Made by a program: the position numbers and the translations under genes
DNA from: Limisphaerales bacterium
GTDB lineage: Bacteria > Verrucomicrobiota > Verrucomicrobiia > Limisphaerales > SXTU01
Reading direction: 5' to 3'
Length of the DNA stretch: 36,019 bases
Assembly (NCBI GenBank): GCA_009773355.1
Contig: WRPG01000053.1
Location: 1-36,019, forward strand
The notes under the pieces: model-generated
Database searches by the model: none
What the model was told of the DNA's origin: nothing
Seen by the model: the letters and a program-made list of their open reading frames with translations, nothing else
Part shown: piece by piece, positions 5,033 to 36,019 of the stretch
Numbering within the stretch: position 1 is the stretch's first letter
Layout: each line of letters opens with the position of its first letter

Positions 5033-8000
5033 TCACTGGCTCGCAGTATTCGTCTCCGCGCGGAGGATTCGATTCAAAAATTCTCCCGTGTGGCTGCCCG
5101 GTGTGGCGGCGACGGTCTCCGGCGTGCCCTCCGCCACGATGCGTCCGCCGCCCGTGCCGCCCTCGGGGCCGAGGTCGAGAATCCAGTCGGCGCACTTGAT
5201 GACATCGAGGTTGTGCTCGATGACGAGGAGCGTGTTCCCCGGCGCGCGGAGTTTGAAGAAGACTTCCAGCAGCTTGGCCACGTCGTGGAAGTGCAGGCCG
5301 GTCGTCGGCTCGTCGAGGATGTAAAGCGTCTTGCCGGTCTGGCGGCGCGAAAGTTCGGACGCCAGCTTCACGCGCTGCGCCTCGCCGCCGGAGAGCGTCG
5401 TGGCCTGCTGACCGAGCCGCAGGTAGCCGAGGCCCACTTCCGCGAGCGTCAGGCACGGCTCGTAAATCTTCGGCACCGCGCGGAAGAAGTTCACCGCCTC
5501 GTCCACCGTGAGGTCGAGCACGTCGGCGATGTTCATGCCCTTGAAGTTGATTTCCAGCGTCTCGCGATTGTAGCGGCGGCCCGCGCAATTTTCGCAGGTC
5601 ACATAAACCGGCGGGAGGAAGTGCATCTCGATCTTGAGCAGCCCGTCGCCCTGGCATTTCTCGCAGCGCCCACCCTTCACGTTGAAGCTGAAGCGCCCCG
5701 CCTCGTAGCCGCGAATCTTCGCCGCCGGGAGCTGCGCGAAGAGGTCGCGGATGGCGTTGAAGATGCCCGTGTAAGTCGCCGGGTTGCTGCGCGGCGTGCG
5801 GCCGATGGGCGTCTGGTCAATGACGACAACTTTGTCGAGCAACTCCGTGCCGCGAATCTCGCGGTGCGCGCCGGGCCGCTCCTTCGAGCCGAACCACAGG
5901 CGGAAGAGATGCCGCTGGAGGATGTCGCAAATCAACGTGCTCTTGCCCGACCCGCTCACGCCGGTCACGCACGTGAGCGTGCCGAGCGGAATGCGCGCCG
6001 TGACGTTCTGCAAGTTGTTCTCCCGCGCGCCGGTGATTTCCAGCCAGCCGGCCTTGCCCACGGGAGAAATGCGTTTGCGTGGCACGGGAATGCTCAAGTC
6101 ACCGCTCAAGTAACGGCCCGTGAGCGAACGCGGGTTCGCCATGACTTCAGCAACGGTGCCTTGCGCGACGACCTCGCCGCCGTGTGTGCCCGCGCCGGGA
6201 CCGAGGTCAATGACGTGGTCGGCGCGGCGGATGGTGTCCTCGTCGTGCTCGACCACGAGGACGGAATTGCCGAGGTCTCGGAGTCCTTCGAGAGTTTTGA
6301 GCAGGCGCTCGTTGTCGCGCTGGTGCAGCCCGATGCTCGGCTCGTCGAGGATGTAGATGACGCCGACCAAGCCCGCGCCAATCTGCGTCGCGAGCCGGAT
6401 GCGCTGCGCCTCGCCGCCCGAGAGCGTGCCGGACTCGCGGTCGAGCGTGAGATAGCCGAGACCGACGTTCTTGAGGAAGCCCAGCCGCGCGCGAATCTCC
6501 TTCACCAGCTCGCCGGCGATTTTCTGCTGAAAGTCCGTGAGCGGCAGCGAGGCGAAGAAGAGGTCGGCGGTGTCCACGGAGAGGGCGCAGACATCGGCGA
6601 TGCTGAGGCCCGGAAGAATTGGCGATTGGCGATTGGCGATTGGTGATTGGGGGAGTTGCGCTTGCCCGCCCAAGCGCACGGCGAGGATTTCTGGTCGCAG
6701 CCGCTTCCCCCCGCACGCATCACAAAACTCCGGGGCCATGAACGCTTTCAGGCGGTTCTTGGTGAACTCGCTTTCGCTCTCGGCGTAGAGGCGTTCGAGG
6801 TTCTTCAGCACGCCCTCGAAGGGCCGCGAGATTTTGCTGACCTTGCCAGCGCGCATGAAGTGGAAGCTCACCTCGGTCTCGCCGGAGCCGTGCAGCACCA
6901 CCCGACGAAAGTCCTCCGGCAGCGATTTCCACGGCGTCTCCAGGCTCTGCTCGAAGTGCGCTGCGAGGCCGCGCAGCAGCGCCTTGTAATAGACAATCAT
7001 CCGCTTGCCACCGCGCCGCCACGGCAGGACCGCGCCGGACTCCAGCGACTTCTCCGCGTCCGGCACGATGAGCGCGGGGTCGAAGACCATCTTCTGTCCG
7101 AGGCCGTGGCAGGTCGGGCACGCACCGAACGGCGAGTTGAAGGAGAAGTGTTTTGGTTCCGGCGGGTCGAACGTCTCGCCCGTGGCCGGGGAATACATCC
7201 GGTTGGAGAGCAGCGTCTCGGTCCACGGCGCGGTGGTAGGGCCGCGCTGCTGCGCGGCCTCGGCTTCGGCGGTCGCCGTGCCCGCTCGTTTCGCTGCGCT
7301 CGCTGACGCGGGGGGAACCTGGCCGACCGGCAGGTCGGCCCTACCGGCGTCGGGCGCTTGCGAGAGCAACAGCAACTTCCCATTCCCCCACTTCAACGCC
7401 GTCTCCACCGAGTCGCCCAGGCGGACGCGGATCTTGTCATCCACCACCAACCGGTCAACGACCACCTCGATGGTGTGCGCCTGCTTCGGCTCCAGCTTGA
7501 TGCGGACGTTGGCGGCGAGTTCGACCAGGTCGCCATCCACCCGCGCGCGCACAAAGCCGTCGCGGGCCAGCCGCTCAATCACATCGCGGAACTCGCCCTT
7601 TTGCTTTTCCACCACCGGCGCGAGCAGCATCACGCGCGTGCGCGGCGGTAACTTGAGGATGGTGTCCACGATGTCGCTGGTGGTCTGGCGCGAGATGGGC
7701 TGGCCGCTGACGGGACAGTGCGGCTGGCCGACGTGAGCGAAGAGCAGGCGCAGGTAGTCGTAAATCTCCGTCGTCGTCGCGATGATGGAGCGGGGGTTCG
7801 AGCCGGAGCTGCGCTGCTCGATGGCGATGGTCGGGGAAAGTCCTTCGAGATAGTCCACGTCCGGCTTCTGGAGCTGGTCGAGGAACTGCCGCGCGTAGGC
7901 GGAAAGGCTTTCCACATACTTGCGCTGGCCCTCCGCGTAAATGGTGTCGAACGCGAGCGAGGACTTGCCCGAGCCGGACAGGCCGGTGAGCACCACCAGC

Positions 8001-8080
8001 TTGCCGCGCGGAATGGCGAGCGAGACAGCCTTGAGGTTGTGCTGCCGCGCGCCGCCGATGCGGATGAAGTCCGTCGCCAT
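5033..8080 (-). CDS. uvrA: UvrABC excinuclease subunit A
   Basis: UvrA is the damage-sensing ABC ATPase of nucleotide excision repair and loads UvrB. The 1015-residue product has Walker A motifs GLSGSGKSS (33-41) and GVSGSGKST, two signatures LSGGEAQR, and two Walker B segments [10 protein letters not shown] and [10 protein letters not shown]. The C-terminal zinc module is complete (Cys806, 809, 829, 832). In the first zinc module only Cys321/Cys324 (CPTC) remain; where many UvrA proteins have the first CxxC pair, this one reads [12 protein letters not shown]. Typical UvrA is about 940 residues; much of the excess is two in-frame repeat insertions at residues about 245-282 and 476-488. The ATG at 8080 is chosen because [17 protein letters not shown] is the family N-terminus. 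A promoter lies 32 bp upstream. Confidence 0.97.
6618..6652. repeat. heptamer array inside uvrA
   Basis: Five tandem copies of a 7-bp unit: three ATTGGCG, one ATTGGTG, one ATTGGGG. On the uvrA strand they encode [10 protein letters not shown]-type residues at about 476-488, between the conserved [11 protein letters not shown] and [10 protein letters not shown] segments, where ordinary UvrA has only a short linker. The reading frame is kept. Confidence 0.85.
7235..7345. repeat. 111-bp inverted-repeat element in frame within uvrA
   Basis: The element begins GGTAGGGCCG (7235-7244) and ends CGGCCCTACC (7336-7345), perfect 10-bp terminal inverted repeats. Smaller palindromes lie just inside each end (GCCGCGCTGCTGCGCGGC; GGCCGACCGGCAGGTCGGCC). 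Its length is 37 codons exactly, so it is read through as [12 protein letters not shown] and an Ala/Glu-rich stretch in UvrA without shifting the frame. It sits just before the first zinc module. Confidence 0.75.
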
Positions 8081-8111
8081 GTGTCGAATTTCGCTTCGCG
8101 AGTAAGGAGCG

Positions 8112-8139
8112 AGCCTAACGAAGCCGCCCGCCGATGCAA
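8112..8139 (-). promoter_or_regulatory. promoter of uvrA
   Basis: On the minus strand TTGCAT (8139-8134) and TAGGCT (8117-8112) are 16 bp apart, and the uvrA ATG lies 31 bp further on. No SOS (LexA) operator could be recognised around it. Confidence 0.45.
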
Positions 8140-8209
8140 AGCCGGGAACAACCCCATGGGCAGCGCGCCGCGACCGTGCGAGTGAGCCTTTCCGCTCCAA
8201 GTGGGGGTG

Positions 8210-13730: not shown

Positions 13731-13758
13731 ACTAATGACTAACCACTAATCACTTCTT
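13731..13758. repeat. heptamer array, oppA side of imm53
   Basis: Four units in 7-bp register: ACTAATG, ACTAACC, ACTAATC, ACTTCTT. They are the inverted counterparts of the GTNATTA-type units at 13405-13432. The oppA stop codon (13752-13750) lies inside the third and fourth units. Confidence 0.8.
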
Positions 13759-15477
13759 CTTCCGGATGGTGTGGATCGGATGCTCATCCAGCAGGTTCGC
13801 GTGGATGCCCTCAATCTTCTTTGGGTCAAAAAAATTCACGCCGGCGTAGAACCACAGCGGGACGATGGGCAGGTCGTCGCGGATGAGGAGCGTCTCGGCC
13901 TGGCGCAGGAGCGCGGCGCGTTTCTTCGGGTCGGTCTGGAGGTTCGCGGTGCGGATGAGGTTGTCGTAGATCGAGTTTGACCAGCCGGTGCGGTTGTTGC
14001 CGTTGCCGGTCATGAACATGTCGAGAAACGTGTTCGGGTCGTTGTAGTCGCCAATCCAACTGCTGCGCGAGAGGTCGTAGTCCAGCGCGCTCTGGGCGCT
14101 GTAATAAACTTTCGGCTCCATCGCGCGCAGCTCCATCTTCACACCGAGTTCCTTGCGCCAGATTTCCTGCAACTCCACGCCCACCTGCTCGTCGAGCTTG
14201 TCGGTCTTGAACAGGTAATGAAACGGCGGGAAGTCCTTGCCGCCGGGGAAGCCGGCCTCGGCGAGAAGCTTGCGGGCCTGCTCGGGGTCGTAGCCCCAGC
14301 CGTCGGGCGGCTCATAAACACCCATGCCCTTCGGCGTGAAGTGCGAGGTCGGCGTCTCGCCGCTGCGGGTGATTTTGTTGACGAGCTTCTGCCGGTCCAC
14401 GGCGAGGGCGAAGGCCCGGCGCACGCGCACGTCGGTGAAGGGCTTGCGCTTCACGTTGAAGCGGAAGAAGTAGGTGCCGAGGTAGTCAAACTTGTGGCAG
14501 TCGGGGCGCTTGCCCAGCACGTCCATGAGTTCGTTCGGCACGAGGTTCTTGTCCCAAATCACGTCCGCCGCGCCGGTCTCGTAGAGGTTCAGCGCGGTGG
14601 TCGAGGACTTGATGGGGAGGAAGTCCACCAGCTCGCTGCGGATGTTCGCGGCGTCCCAGTGGCGGGCGTTGCGGCGGAGACGGACACGGTCGTTGAGCCG
14701 CCAGAACTCCAGCGTGTATGCGCCGTTGCTCGGCACCGGCTGCGTGAGGAGCCAGCGGTCGCCGTGCTGCTCAATCCAGAAGCGCGGCACGACCGCGAGC
14801 GTCGGAAACGCGCAGAGGTCGAGGAAGAAGGCCGTCGGGCCGATGAGTTCCACGCGCAGCGTGTGCGGGTCGAGCGCGCACACAGCGATGTCTTCGGGCT
14901 TGAAAGGCTTGCCGGTCGCGGCGTTGGTCTTGCCAGTGGAGTAATCCTCCGCGCCCTTGATGAAGAAGAGCTGGCTGGCGTATTCCGCGCCGGTTATGGG
15001 GTCGAGCGCGCGACGCCACGACCAGACCACGTCTTCCGCAGTGATGGGCTGACCGGTGGACCACACAGCGTTGGTGCGAAGGTGGAAGGTGTAAACCACG
15101 CCGTTGGGCGACATGTCCCAACGATGGGCGAGCGCTGGTTCGGCGGTGGCGTTCTTGCCTTCCAGTCGCGTCAGCCCCTCGAAGAGCGCCTTCACGATGC
15201 GCATTTCGGTCTGCGTGGAGATGATGGCGGGATCGAGGGAGTCGGGTTCCGCGCCGTTGACCAGGACGAGGTCGGCCGGCGGCTCGGAGCGGGTGCAGCC
15301 GACGAGAACAACAACGAGAACAACGCCGACGAGTCGTGCTGCGTGTTGCGGGTTGCGTGTCAGCCCAAGCGCGCGCGTCGCGAAACCATGCAGCACGCAA
15401 CACGCAACACGCAACACAGCCCCGAAAAGGCGAAACGCCCTCGGAGCTTTACCAAGGGCGTGTTTCGCGAACGGCAT
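13750..15477 (-). CDS. oppA: oligopeptide-binding lipoprotein OppA
   Basis: A 575-residue extracytoplasmic solute-binding protein (SBP_bac_5 family) that delivers peptides to OppBC. The lipobox is LVGC with Cys61; mature sequence starts CTRSEPPADLVLVNGAEPDSLDPA. Family motifs follow: FEGLTRLEGKNATAEPALAHRWDMSPNG, TAEDVVWSWRRALDP, and RRAFALAVDRQKLVNK. The signal sequence is unusually long: residues 21-48 come from a heptamer inverted repeat, giving two hydrophobic stretches before the lipobox. The ATG at 15477 is 10 bp after the secG stop; a GTG at residue 21 is an alternative. In the same transcript as tpiA-secG upstream and imm53-oppB-oppC downstream. Confidence 0.92.
   Translation of the reverse strand: MPFAKHALGKAPRAFRLFGAVLRVACCVLHGFATRALGLTRNPQHAARLVGVVLVVVLVGCTRSEPPADLVLVNGAEPDSLDPAIISTQTEMRIVKALFEGLTRLEGKNATAEPALAHRWDMSPNGVVYTFHLRTNAVWSTGQPITAEDVVWSWRRALDPITGAEYASQLFFIKGAEDYSTGKTNAATGKPFKPEDIAVCALDPHTLRVELIGPTAFFLDLCAFPTLAVVPRFWIEQHGDRWLLTQPVPSNGAYTLEFWRLNDRVRLRRNARHWDAANIRSELVDFLPIKSSTTALNLYETGAADVIWDKNLVPNELMDVLGKRPDCHKFDYLGTYFFRFNVKRKPFTDVRVRRAFALAVDRQKLVNKITRSGETPTSHFTPKGMGVYEPPDGWGYDPEQARKLLAEAGFPGGKDFPPFHYLFKTDKLDEQVGVELQEIWRKELGVKMELRAMEPKVYYSAQSALDYDLSRSSWIGDYNDPNTFLDMFMTGNGNNRTGWSNSIYDNLIRTANLQTDPKKRAALLRQAETLLIRDDLPIVPLWFYAGVNFFDPKKIEGIHANLLDEHPIHTIRKKK
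15336..15417. repeat. inverted heptamer array in the oppA signal-peptide region
   Basis: Left arm 15336-15360 reads GTGCTGC, GTGTTGC, GGGTTGC, GTGT. Right arm 15388-15417 contains ATGCAGC and three perfect ACGCAAC units (15395-15415). The arms are complementary around about 27 bp that itself contains a CG-rich palindromic tract (15368-15382). The whole block is in frame within oppA. Confidence 0.8.
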
Positions 15478-32860: not shown

Positions 32861-34153
32861 ATGGCCCAATTTTCCTACAAGGCCCGCAAGCGCTCCGGCG
32901 AGACCGTCAGCGGCATTCTCGATGTCAACGACCGCGGCGCGGCGCTGGCGCAGATTGATCGCATGGGGTTGTTTCCAGTGGCCGTCGAGGCGGCCAAGGG
33001 CGGCGCGGCGGCGACCCCGGGCAAGGCGGAGATTTCCATCTCGTTCACCAAGTTTCTGCCGCCCGCGCTGCGCGAGGTGGCGCTGCGTCCGCGCCAGCCG
33101 AACATGCAGGAGCTGGCGACGTTCACGCAGCAGCTCGCCAACTTGATCAAGGCCGGCATGCCGCTCACCGCAGCGCTGAACAGCATGACCTACCTCGGCT
33201 CGAAGGGCATTCCCGCCGAGGTGGCCAAGCAGCTCCGGCAGGACGTGACCGAGGGCCGCAGCCTGTCCGACGCGATGGCGAAGCAGCCGGTCATCTTCAC
33301 GGACATGTATGTCAACATGGTCCGCGCGGGCGAGCAGAGCGGCTCGTTGCAGGAGGTGCTGCGGCGGCTGGCGGAGCACTACGAGCGCTTCGCCGAGGTG
33401 CGCTCGAAGGTGCAGTCCGCGCTGATCTACCCGATGATCGTCGTGCTGGTGGGCTTCGCGATGGTGGTGGTGTTCATCGTGTTCATCCTGCCGACGTTTC
33501 TCTCGCTGTTCCAAGGCATCAAGGCCGAGCTGCCGGCCTCGACGCGGCTGCTCATCGGCATCAGCAACTTCATCCGCAACCCGGCCTATCTGCTGACCAT
33601 GGCGCTGGTGGCAGTCGCGGGTTCCATTGTCTTCCTCCGCTTCCGCGCCAGCGACGTGGGCCGCCGGATGCTGGACCGCTGGAAGCTCAAGGCCCCGCTC
33701 TTCGGCAAGGTGATGCGGCTCTATCTCTTCGGGCAGTTCGCGCGCACGCTGGGCACGCTCATGCAGAACGGCGTCTCGGTCCTGACCGCGTTGAAGATCA
33801 CCGAGCAGGTGCTGCCCAACACCATTCTCAAGGAGGCCATCGCGAAGACCCGCGAGGCCGTGACCGACGGTAAAACCCTCGCGCAGCCGCTGGCGCGCAG
33901 CCAGGTCTTCCCGCAGCTCATGATTGACCTGATCCGCATCGGCGAGGAGACCGGCGATGTGCCCGGCGCGCTCCGCAGCGTGGCGGAGAGCTACGAGAGC
34001 GACCTGAACACCACGCTGCGCGTCCTGATGAACCTGATCGAGCCAGTGATGATCATCGGCATCGCCATCGTGGTGGTGTTCCTGCTCCTGAGCGTGCTCC
34101 AGGCGATGTTCATGATCACGTCGAGCATCGGAGAAAGCTTTGGTGGAAGATGA
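32861..34153 (+). CDS. gspF: type II secretion system inner-membrane protein GspF
   Basis: A 430-residue GspF/PilC family platform protein that links the secretion ATPase to pseudopilus assembly. It has the family N-terminal signature FSYKARKRSGETVSGILDVNDRGAALAQIDRMGLFPV, two copies of the GspF domain (first around FTQQLANLIKAGMPLTAALNSM, second around FGQFARTLGTLMQNGVSVLTAL), and three membrane helices (MIVVLVGFAMVVVFIVFILPTF, LLTMALVAVAGSIVFLRF, IEPVMIIGIAIVVVFLLLSVLQAMFM). The end overlaps gspH by 4 bp. PilC of type IV pili is very similar, but the downstream GspH/I/J-like genes favour a type II secretion system; GspE and GspG are not in the window. Confidence 0.93.
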   Translation: MAQFSYKARKRSGETVSGILDVNDRGAALAQIDRMGLFPVAVEAAKGGAAATPGKAEISISFTKFLPPALREVALRPRQPNMQELATFTQQLANLIKAGMPLTAALNSMTYLGSKGIPAEVAKQLRQDVTEGRSLSDAMAKQPVIFTDMYVNMVRAGEQSGSLQEVLRRLAEHYERFAEVRSKVQSALIYPMIVVLVGFAMVVVFIVFILPTFLSLFQGIKAELPASTRLLIGISNFIRNPAYLLTMALVAVAGSIVFLRFRASDVGRRMLDRWKLKAPLFGKVMRLYLFGQFARTLGTLMQNGVSVLTALKITEQVLPNTILKEAIAKTREAVTDGKTLAQPLARSQVFPQLMIDLIRIGEETGDVPGALRSVAESYESDLNTTLRVLMNLIEPVMIIGIAIVVVFLLLSVLQAMFMITSSIGESFGGR

Positions 34154-34752
34154 ATGTGGCAAGTGACAGGTGGCAGGTGACAAGTGGCGCGGCAAGCGTG
34201 TCCACCCGCCACCATTCACTAATCACTAATTACTTCTCTCCCTCCGCCGCCTTCACCCTCATCGAGATCATGATCGTCGTGGGCATCATCGCGATCCTCA
34301 TGACCATCGCCATCCCCGCCTTCGTCTCGGCGCAGAACAAGACGCCCATGCGCAATGCGCTGCAAGGCGTGATGGAAGCCTGCGCCACCGCCCGCGCCCA
34401 GGCCATCCTGCGCGGCTCGCTCGTTGAGCTGCGCATTCGCCCGCAGGACCACACCTTCGATGTGACACCCACCGGCCAGGGCGGCAGTTCATCCGGCGGT
34501 GAAGCGCGTCCTGAGCCGAAAGCCGGCGAGGGCCACGGCGTCTTCACCCTGAAGCTGCCGGAGGAGGTCGGCATCGAGGAACTTGCGGTGAACTTCCAAC
34601 TGCTCAAGGAAGCCGAGGCCGTCGCCGTGCGCTTCCACGCCAACGGCACGAGCGACGAGTTCACCGTGGTGCTGCGCTCGCTGGCTGGCGAGTTGCGGAA
34701 GATCACCCTCGATCCCGTCACCGGCAAGGCGGACTACGACGTGCTGCGATGA
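34150..34752 (+). CDS. gspH: minor pseudopilin, GspH-like
   Basis: A 200-residue prepilin. The N-methylation segment AAFTLIEIMIVVGIIAILMTIAIPAFVSAQ marks a type IV pilin-like protein, with cleavage expected before Phe35 and the Glu at +5 present. After the helix, RNALQGVMEACATARAQAILRGSLVELRIRPQ is the GspH/FimT-like pattern. The 34-residue leader is much longer than the usual 6-15 and is encoded by heptamer repeats. The residue before the cut is Ala, not Gly. Overlaps gspF (ATGA) and gspI. Confidence 0.85.
   Translation: MNVASDRWQVTSGAASVSTRHHSLITNYFSPSAAFTLIEIMIVVGIIAILMTIAIPAFVSAQNKTPMRNALQGVMEACATARAQAILRGSLVELRIRPQDHTFDVTPTGQGGSSSGGEARPEPKAGEGHGVFTLKLPEEVGIEELAVNFQLLKEAEAVAVRFHANGTSDEFTVVLRSLAGELRKITLDPVTGKADYDVLR
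34156..34235. repeat. heptamer arrays in the gspH leader
   Basis: First block in 7-bp register: GTGGCAA, GTGACAG, GTGGCAG, GTGACAA, GTGGCGC (34156-34190). Second block: TTCACTA, ATCACTA, ATTACTT (34215-34235). The first resembles the reverse complement of the arrays in the gspI and gspJ leaders; the second uses the same unit family as the array at 13731-13758 beside imm53. Confidence 0.75.
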
Positions 34753-35273
34753 ACTTCAGGGTGACAAGTGACACGAGGCAAGTGCCAAGGCTCACGCCGA
34801 GTTCCGGCGCGCGTTTCGTGTCACCTGTCACCTGCCACCTGTCACCCGCCGCCGCCTTCACCCTGCTGGAGGTGATGATCGCCATCGGCATCTTCTTCAT
34901 GTGCGTGTTCTTCATCCTGGAGCTGGTGTCCACGAATCTGCGGCACGTCCAGCGGCTTCAGAAGCCAAGCGTGGACATTGGCAGCCTGGCGTCCGAGCTG
35001 TCGCTCACGAACAAGCTGGAGGAGGGCGGCGACTCCGGGGACTTCGGCAGCCTTTACCCCAGCGTCTCGTGGTCGCGCGAGATCGTGATGGTGGGCACCA
35101 ACGGCTTGTTCCAGGTGGATTTCACCGTGCTGGACGGCTCGGGCGGCGGGCGGTTTCCCGTGGAGAGCAAACTGTCCATTTTCCTCTACCGGCCAGAATC
35201 AATGATGGGCGTGGGCGGCGGAAGCCGGGGGGGGGCGACCGGCCCGCCCGTGCGCAGCTACCCCAGCCGATGA
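34749..35273 (+). CDS. gspI: minor pseudopilin, GspI-like
   Basis: A 174-residue prepilin with segment AAAFTLLEVMIAIGIFFMCVFFILELVSTNL; the TLLEVMIA start is typical of GspI. Cleavage would precede Phe37, leaving a 36-residue leader made largely of heptamer repeats. The mature part has a short beta domain (WSREIVMVGTNGLFQVDFTVLD) and a Gly-rich C-terminus. It overlaps gspH by 4 bp and gspJ by 4 bp. Assignment to GspI rests on the N-terminal helix and gene order F-H-I-J. Confidence 0.75.
   Translation: MNFRVTSDTRQVPRLTPSSGARFVSPVTCHLSPAAAFTLLEVMIAIGIFFMCVFFILELVSTNLRHVQRLQKPSVDIGSLASELSLTNKLEEGGDSGDFGSLYPSVSWSREIVMVGTNGLFQVDFTVLDGSGGGRFPVESKLSIFLYRPESMMGVGGGSRGGATGPPVRSYPSR
34761..34848. repeat. 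inverted heptamer array in the gspI leader
   Basis: Left arm: GTGACAA, GTGACAC, GAGGCAA, GTGCCAA, GGCTCAC (34761-34795). Right arm: TCACCTG, TCACCTG, CCACCTG, TCACCCG (34821-34848). The arms are mutually complementary across a 25-bp spacer and end 8 bp before the codon of the mature Phe. Confidence 0.8.
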
Positions 35274-36019
35274 ATGCGACGGATGACAAAAGGCAGTTGA
35301 CCGGTGACGCGCGAGCGAGCGCCGCTGGTCACTTGTCACCTGTCACTTGTCACCGGTCACCTCGTTCTGCCTTCACCCTCATCGAGGTCATCATCGCCAT
35401 CGGCATCCTCGGGCTGGTGATGACGGCGATCTACGCGAGTTGGACCGCCGTGCTGCGCGCGTCGAAGACCGGCAACGCGGCTGCGGACGAGGTGCAGCGC
35501 ATGCGCATCGCGCGGCAGGCGCTGGAGCAGTCGCTTGCCTCCGCCGTGCTCTACGCCGCCAACCCGCGCCATTACTCCTTCATCGCGGACACCACGGACG
35601 AAAAGTTCGCGCTGCTCAGTTTCGTCGCGCACCTGCCGCAGGACTTTCCCGGCAGCGGCATGTTTCCCAACCAGCCGCTGCGCCGCGTGACCTTCGCGGT
35701 GGAACCCGGCACGAACAACGGCCCGCCGGCGCTGGTGTTGCGACAAGCCTCGCTGCTCACGCCGACCAACTCCCCGGTCGAGGAATCCTACACGCTCACC
35801 CTCTCGCGCCACCTCGCCGTCTTCGGCGTGGAGTTCTGGAGCACGAACCTGAACGACTGGGACGTGGAATGGCTCCCGACCAACCAGGTGCCGAAGATGC
35901 TGCGCGTGACGCTCGGCTTCGGCGGCGACAGCCGGGCCGGGTCAACGCCGGCAATCCTCGTCAGCAGCGTGATTTCGCCCGGCGGGCAGGGCGTGGGGCG
36001 CGACGTGCAGGGCGTCGCG
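35270..36019 (+). CDS. gspJ: minor pseudopilin, GspJ-like (partial, runs off window)
   Basis: An open frame of 250 codons without a stop, cut by the window end. The prepilin segment SAFTLIEVIIAIGILGLVMTAIYASWTAVLRAS has Phe35 as expected first mature residue and Glu at +5. The C-terminal body (AVFGVEFWSTNLNDWDVEWLPTNQVPKMLRVTLGF) matches the GspJ pattern, where a late strand precedes an RVTL-type strand. ATG at 35270 overlaps the gspI stop (ATGA); the 34-residue leader MNATDDKRQLTGDAR... is built from heptamers. GspJ caps the pseudopilus with GspI and GspK; a gspK gene would be expected next. Confidence 0.8.
   Translation, partial: MNATDDKRQLTGDARASAAGHLSPVTCHRSPRSAFTLIEVIIAIGILGLVMTAIYASWTAVLRASKTGNAAADEVQRMRIARQALEQSLASAVLYAANPRHYSFIADTTDEKFALLSFVAHLPQDFPGSGMFPNQPLRRVTFAVEPGTNNGPPALVLRQASLLTPTNSPVEESYTLTLSRHLAVFGVEFWSTNLNDWDVEWLPTNQVPKMLRVTLGFGGDSRAGSTPAILVSSVISPGGQGVGRDVQGVA
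35281..35363. repeat. inverted heptamer array in the gspJ leader
   Basis: Left arm: GGATGAC, AAAAGGC, AGTTGAC, CGGTGAC (35281-35308). Right arm: TCACTTG, TCACCTG, TCACTTG, TCACCGG, TCACCTC (35329-35363). The arms face each other across 20 bp, and the right arm ends 8 bp before the mature Phe codon, the same distance as in gspI. Confidence 0.8.

Follow-up and report, generated by a model that had tools for sequence, protein, structure and literature searches.

The right end of contig WRPG01000053.1 from a Limisphaerales bacterium (GCA_009773355.1) carries a type II secretion system (T2SS)-like operon, gspF-H-I-J, in which three consecutive prepilin leaders are encoded by inverted arrays of heptamers. 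The window analysed is the entire contig, 36,019 nt in length. These arrays had been proposed in the initial annotation of this DNA, and they were confirmed with Tandem Repeats Finder (TRF), an independent period scan and shuffle controls. We consider it probable, with moderate confidence, that the leader arrays are relatives, lacking an open reading frame (ORF), of elements that sit at gene junctions and resemble the intervening sequences (IVSs) of rRNA. Comparison of sequences established the arrays, their position, the open frame through them, the turnover of heptamer families, a genome-wide class of such elements, an association of that class with S23/23S-intervening sequence protein (IVP; PF05635) genes in several phyla, and the presence or absence of whole units at junctions. 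The gsp leaders would then descend from the IVP elements or arise by the same process, the junction unit would be mobile, and the array in a leader may have no regulatory task and simply be tolerated there as a passenger.

Profile support within the operon is graded, being strong for GspF, moderate for GspH (TIGR01708, E 5e-12, which is under that profile's cut-off) and weak for GspI and GspJ; gspJ is truncated by the contig end (Table 1). Downstream of the leaders the N-terminal methylation motif of prepilins and pseudopilins is present as FTLIE/FTLLE, with the mature Phe encoded at 34252 (gspH), 34857 (gspI) and 35372 (gspJ), and matches to PF07963/TIGR02532 begin at residues 30-35 in gspH and gspJ, the gspI match being weaker. 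As in the minor pseudopilins of T2SS (N_methyl), a class III signal peptide with Ala at -1 precedes this Phe, but the leaders here are built of repeats and are long. Their lengths of 34, 36 and 34 residues and their placement at ATGA junctions agree with the initial annotation, whereas leaders of order-level relatives have a median of 16 aa (n=104).

The two arms are inverted in each of the three leaders, least clearly in gspH where the right arm is mixed. As in IVSs, inverted repeats at the two ends pair into a stem in gspI and gspJ and weakly in gspH; among the congeneric genomes (labelled with G-numbers, G000 being the source genome) these stems are near-perfect in gspI of G004 and in gspI and gspJ of G001, and missing in some others. 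The folded leaders of gspI (z -3.9) and gspJ (z -3.7) are more stable than dinucleotide shuffles, and that of gspH is weakly so (z -2.2). The right array had been said to end 8 bp before the Phe codon in both gspI and gspJ; the distance is indeed equal in the two genes, but it is 10 nt by the boundaries used here. The repeats had also been said to fill nearly the whole of every leader, which overstates their share, as the spacer between the arms occupies about 20-40 nt.

Table 1. Positions in the window of the operon genes, prepilin leaders and heptamer arrays.
Feature	Coordinates	Strand	Evidence and remarks
gspF	32861..34153	+	PF00482 E 2e-60, TIGR02120 E 4e-105; most upstream gene of gspF-H-I-J; anchor for orthologous loci
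gspH leader, 34 aa	34150..34251	+	ATGA overlap with gspF stop; N_methyl match
gspH left array, GTGRCAR units	34156..34188	+	TRF; TGG at would-be TGA stop
gspH right array, degenerate CACCCGC then TCACTAA units	34202..34234	+	TRF, period scan
gspI leader, 36 aa	34749..34856	+	ATGA overlap with gspH stop; weak GspI profile match
gspI left array, GTGACAA units	34761..34789	+	TRF; inverted-repeat arm
gspI right array, TGTCACC units	34819..34846	+	Inverted relative to left arm; fold z -3.9
gspJ leader, 34 aa	35270..35371	+	ATGA overlap with gspI stop; N_methyl match, weak GspJ match
gspJ left arm, degenerate heptamers	~35279..35308	+	Inverted repeat; fold
gspJ right array, GTCACCT/GTCACTT units	35325..35361	+	TRF, period scan; fold z -3.7
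Inverted GTGTTGC/GCAACAC pair	15335..15417	-	In signal-peptide-like N terminus of lipoprotein-like gene 13750-15477 (-)

The reading frames indicate that the arrays are translated, from the ATGA starts. In 31 scored leaders of the genus the ATGA frame has no stop in 1060 codons, compared with 91 stops in 2058 codons of the other two frames (56 and 35). This frame was picked as the open one; the fair tests are whether it also contains the junction ATG, as it does in nearly all cases, and the substitution to TGG. GTGRCA units in the stop phase read G (TGG) in 8 of 8 cases, as opposed to 8 of 39 elsewhere (p 4e-5), the remaining 31 reading GTGACA and so containing TGA. The open frame and the TGG at the stop phase suggest that the leader is kept readable, which fits both the ATGA start and removal by prepilin peptidase. 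Such removal is established for N-methylated pilins in general, and the leaders here are predicted to be disposable in this way. Internal starts past the arrays (GTG or TTG in the window) were considered and rejected; they are unconserved across species and no Shine-Dalgarno sequence was seen near them, so the ATGA starts are preferred. Two outcomes had been named beforehand as fatal to the annotation, a start downstream of the arrays and strict conservation of the leaders; no conserved internal start was found, and the leaders diverge.

The annotation had further suggested that gain or loss of one heptamer would shift the frame and turn the pseudopilin off. Seven is not divisible by three, so a change of one unit does shift the frame, and the number of heptamers differs among strains of Coxiella (PMC4990558). 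All 33 assembled gspH/I/J leaders from orthologous loci in 11 congeneric species are however in frame (median 35 aa), and the closest pair, G002 and G009, whose mature parts are 98-99% identical, differs by leader substitutions with zero change in length. The arrays are also short (about 2-5 units) and imperfect, and short imperfect repeats disfavour rapid slippage. The switch is therefore unsupported by these leaders, and we regard it as very improbable.

Beyond the source genome, ten congeners have GspF orthologues that are 72-90% identical, and almost every species in the genus has its leaders placed at the ATGA junctions. A period-7 array was scored in 21 of the 31 leaders (threshold 10). 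Arrays of period 5, 6, 8, 9 or 10 were found in none of the 31, and codon shuffles of the genus leaders produced no period-7 arrays. Outgroup leaders carry arrays in 9 of 104 cases, mostly of other heptamers, and these leaders are longer (median 32 aa, against 15 aa for those without). At the same gene the heptamer family varies among species, including GTGACAR/TCACCTG, AGAAGTC, AGTCAGC, CTCAACT, TTTCACC and GCTGTCC. Between species pairs the mature parts are 75-99% identical and the leaders 46-98%, with the leader lower in every pair compared; together with the changes of family this bears out the earlier suggestion that the leaders are free to change while the mature proteins stay the same. 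In G005 and G008 the leaders of gspH and gspJ have a 22-nt spacer in common. A search of 11 genomes for further copies located them in gspH and gspJ leaders alone, the other instances being gspJ of G002 and G009, which points to local copying, with the leaders of one operon exchanging sequence.

Hairpins of up to about 40 bp can be drawn in these leaders, the most extreme being that of gspI in G004 (-77.7 kcal/mol), with z down to -9.6 in some species, and native arms out-pair swapped arms overall (0 of 5000 permutations as good). Such stability, and the junction placement in nearly all species, would be expected if the arrays were functional RNA hairpins through which mRNA stability or coupled translation is tuned where the genes of gspF-H-I-J meet. 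This we consider improbable, as z is below -2 in only 11 of the 29 leaders folded, the remainder being less stable, arrays are absent from most outgroup leaders, and the gspH leader of G003 is 12 aa long and has no array. Strict compensatory pairing as a general rule was ruled out, as the arms are often of different families.

Genome-wide array counts were taken from 634 kb of the source genome. There are 46 period-7 arrays. Other periods gave 0-17, apart from 27 for period 14, a multiple of 7, and shuffles gave none. About 34 of the 46 are intergenic though intergenic DNA makes up 10%, and many are paired and inverted around a short loop; the gsp arrays are themselves coding, unlike this intergenic majority. 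Both marks of the short tandemly repeated repetitive (STRR) and long simple sequence repeat (LSSR) types, a 7-nt excess across the genome and a mostly intergenic location, are thus found in the source genome. The arrays are not a general trait of prepilins, since 85 of 90 prepilin-like loci (96 by profile) have no array near the leader; three of the five that do are gspH, gspI and gspJ. The source genome has two more prepilins with heptamer leaders (G000:C139:36293-36858 and G000:C11:2381-2943), one with an inverted GTGTTGC pair and one with a CAATCGG array.

One GTGACAA pair in the source genome encloses a small ORF matching PF05635, the 23S rRNA IVP family. Seven IVP genes there score above the family cut-off, and all seven are surrounded by arrays; six have clear inverted arms, one of the six with period 8. 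Heptamers from the gsp leaders are found again in the arms of IVP elements of this genome. IVP genes were then picked by profile match and subjected to one uniform flank test for inverted repeats. In the genus 23 of the 31 passed (20 with period 7, some with period 8) as against 8 of 475 control genes. Across the phylum 16 of 30 passed, 12 of them with repeats of period 7 and some with period 8; the control for this set was the source-genome genes, a second control set having been left out as it contained IVP genes. On plasmids, where IVP matches are nearly all cyanobacterial, 11 of 18 passed, Azospirillum and Gemmatirosa included, compared with none of 45 non-IVP genes on a single Nostoc plasmid. 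Because IVP genes from related species are not independent data points, the associated p values are nominal. On Anabaena sp. 90 plasmid pANA02 and a Picosynechococcus plasmid, an IVP gene lies between cas6 and cas4 with a 260-nt AGGTGAC/AGGGAAC array, one of whose units belongs to a heptamer family also present in the window, and another IVP gene lies between cas10 and cmr3.

Whole units are present at a junction in some species and absent in others. At parB-def, IVP sequence and arrays occur in four species, with the ORF cut to 65 aa and the arms kept in G004 and a disrupted frame in G008; in the other six no intact IVP was found at this junction. A different inverted repeat (GCGAAAGAGCACAAACAGCGCAAA / TTTGCGTCCTCTGTGC) fills the junction in species without IVP. 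The cysH-cysD junction holds, depending on the species, an IVP element, a PDDEXK_3 gene within inverted ACGGATT arrays or an ORF-less ACGGATT hairpin; PDDEXK_3 is thus a second small-gene family with an IVP-like habit. The junctions upstream and downstream of gmk have a full element in some species and a few nt from stop to start in others. At ccsA-hemA the plan is retained while the heptamer is swapped between species (GTGACAA, CGATTGC/CCCCATT, AATTGCG/ATTCGCA, TTCATCC). G002 and G009 have quite different families there despite their nearly identical mature gsp parts, a difference suggesting that the stretch was replaced as a whole and did not drift gradually. The cleanest case is that of two Nostoc plasmids, for which the evidence comes from complete records rather than metagenome-assembled genomes (MAGs). 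They share one operon in which an AGTCAGG-armed IVP unit precedes a 95-aa gene in one and a GGGAAAA-armed unit follows it in the other. Each plasmid has a clean empty site, with stop directly abutting start, where the other has its unit. No target-site duplication was evident by eye in this filled/empty comparison of two sites.

These sites bear on whether the arrays are simply products of mutation, in which case 7-nt slippage and template switching at hairpins would build them in unconstrained DNA and S23/IVP genes would enter arrays already in place. Heptamers are the most abundant class of long simple repeats in many bacteria (PMC4679880), unrelated genes here have arrays too, in loops and N-terminal extensions, and the arms are sometimes non-complementary. 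However, had IVP genes entered existing arrays, arrays would be expected at parB-def in species without IVP, and most of these are also array-less; the reciprocal empty sites in Nostoc involve whole units, and the junction upstream of gmk has either a few nt or a complete unit and no short intermediates. We therefore think this account unlikely, though it is the rival to be taken most seriously.

In the favoured reading, that of relatives of IVS-like junction elements, an element would consist of a left heptamer array, a loop and an inverted right heptamer array, located after the stop codon of one gene and before the start of its neighbour. ORF-bearing members would carry in the loop the gene for S23/23S-IVP, a four-helix bundle, and resemble rRNA IVSs. 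The ATGA overlaps leave no intergenic space at gspF-H-I-J, and here the element would be placed just within the downstream gene, in the prepilin leader. As the leader is predicted to be translated but cut off, only the frame and the absence of stops would be constrained, and the arrays would be tolerated. The arms may then drift and switch family by turnover of repeats and by exchange between neighbouring leaders.

Several observations weigh against this. An S23/IVP ORF is in none of the gsp leader loops. Such an ORF is optional in IVSs, short ones lacking it, and is encoded by sister elements in the same genome. ORF-less arrays number about 450 in the source genome (extrapolated from the 634 kb) against 8 IVP genes, so that heptamer arrays may be an independent phenomenon merely colonised by IVP genes. 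The pairing advantage of native arms is absent in some leaders, and several leaders and junctions have non-pairing arms from different families (gspJ of G005 and G002, gmk of G000). Insertion is deduced from comparison between species, mostly of MAGs.

A wider version of the same idea, which we put forward only tentatively, is that inverted arrays are the ends of mobile IVS-like elements found across phyla that insert cleanly from stop to start. Their own protein would be S23/IVP, a relative of Avd, perhaps acting with a reverse transcriptase on an RNA stem. ORF-less copies would account for the heptamer repeats that cyanobacteria, xanthomonads and verrucomicrobia carry, and where operons are tight they would become disposable translated prepilin leaders. 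PF05635 resembles Avd of diversity-generating retroelements (PMC10053308), and a sub-threshold bAvd match was obtained.

The closest known system is the IVS of 23S rRNA (Leptospira, Coxiella; PF05635). In Coxiella it is an insertion with a 28-bp terminal stem that is cut by RNase III and encodes S23p, and two to three tandem GACAGAT heptamers, in a strain-dependent number, lie ahead of the S23p ORF (PMC4990558). Shared features are the terminal inverted repeats forming a stem, the S23/IVP ORF in the loop of ORF-bearing members, presence or absence between relatives, and heptamers adjoining the S23p ORF in Coxiella (PMC4990558). The elements here lie between protein-coding genes and not in rRNA, and the gsp leader members are ORF-less and translated within the host gene; the gsp arrays are not classed as IVSs because they are sited in a T2SS-like operon and not in a 23S rRNA gene. 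Miniature inverted-repeat transposable elements (MITEs) and REP doublets forming hairpins (REPINs) are likewise short and ORF-less, with inverted ends, many copies and presence or absence as whole units, but the arms here are tandem arrays of changing heptamers, and no shared end sequence was found. No transposase turned up, although no search aimed at transposases was made.

Heptameric repeats are known from Nostoc and Calothrix as STRRs. To our knowledge there is no agreed function or origin for the heptamer repeats of several bacterial groups, from the Calothrix STRRs onward, and we know of no role for S23/IVP proteins. In Xanthomonas, most GGGAATC heptamers lie between genes, and each genome has 70-75 inverted pairs of them (PMC4692102); X. 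campestris also has an S23p of solved structure (Xcc0516), as cited in PMC4990558. TAACTGA repeats occur in Beggiatoaceae, cyanobacteria and Bacteroidetes (PMC4679880). All these heptameric repeats resemble the arrays described here in being dispersed 7-nt tandem units, mostly intergenic and often between co-directional genes, with content poorly conserved among relatives. The source genome differs in its many families per genome, in the swapping of families at a fixed junction, in the arrays within translated leaders and in the S23/IVP link, which was not found in PMC4692102 and PMC4679880. Beyond the Coxiella heptamers we found no report tying heptamer arrays to S23/IVP genes generally, in a search that left most subscription papers outside its reach. 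The arrays would link two long-unexplained features of genomes, heptamer repeats and rRNA-type intervening sequences. If arrays and S23/IVP belong to a single element, the origin of the repeats and the role of the protein could both be tested at particular loci, and the gsp leaders would show how an element can persist in coding sequence, by occupying a protein segment that is made and then discarded.

Elsewhere in the window, the signal-peptide-like N terminus that contains the inverted pair at 15335-15417 would be a second cleaved leader to host such an element. An Rfam scan of the region gave a sub-threshold match only, which was judged to be chance. A minus-strand gene at 5033-8200, which looks conserved and by eye resembles UvrA, contains 4.7 in-frame copies of ATTGGCG at 6618-6650; they presumably fall in a loop that tolerates them.

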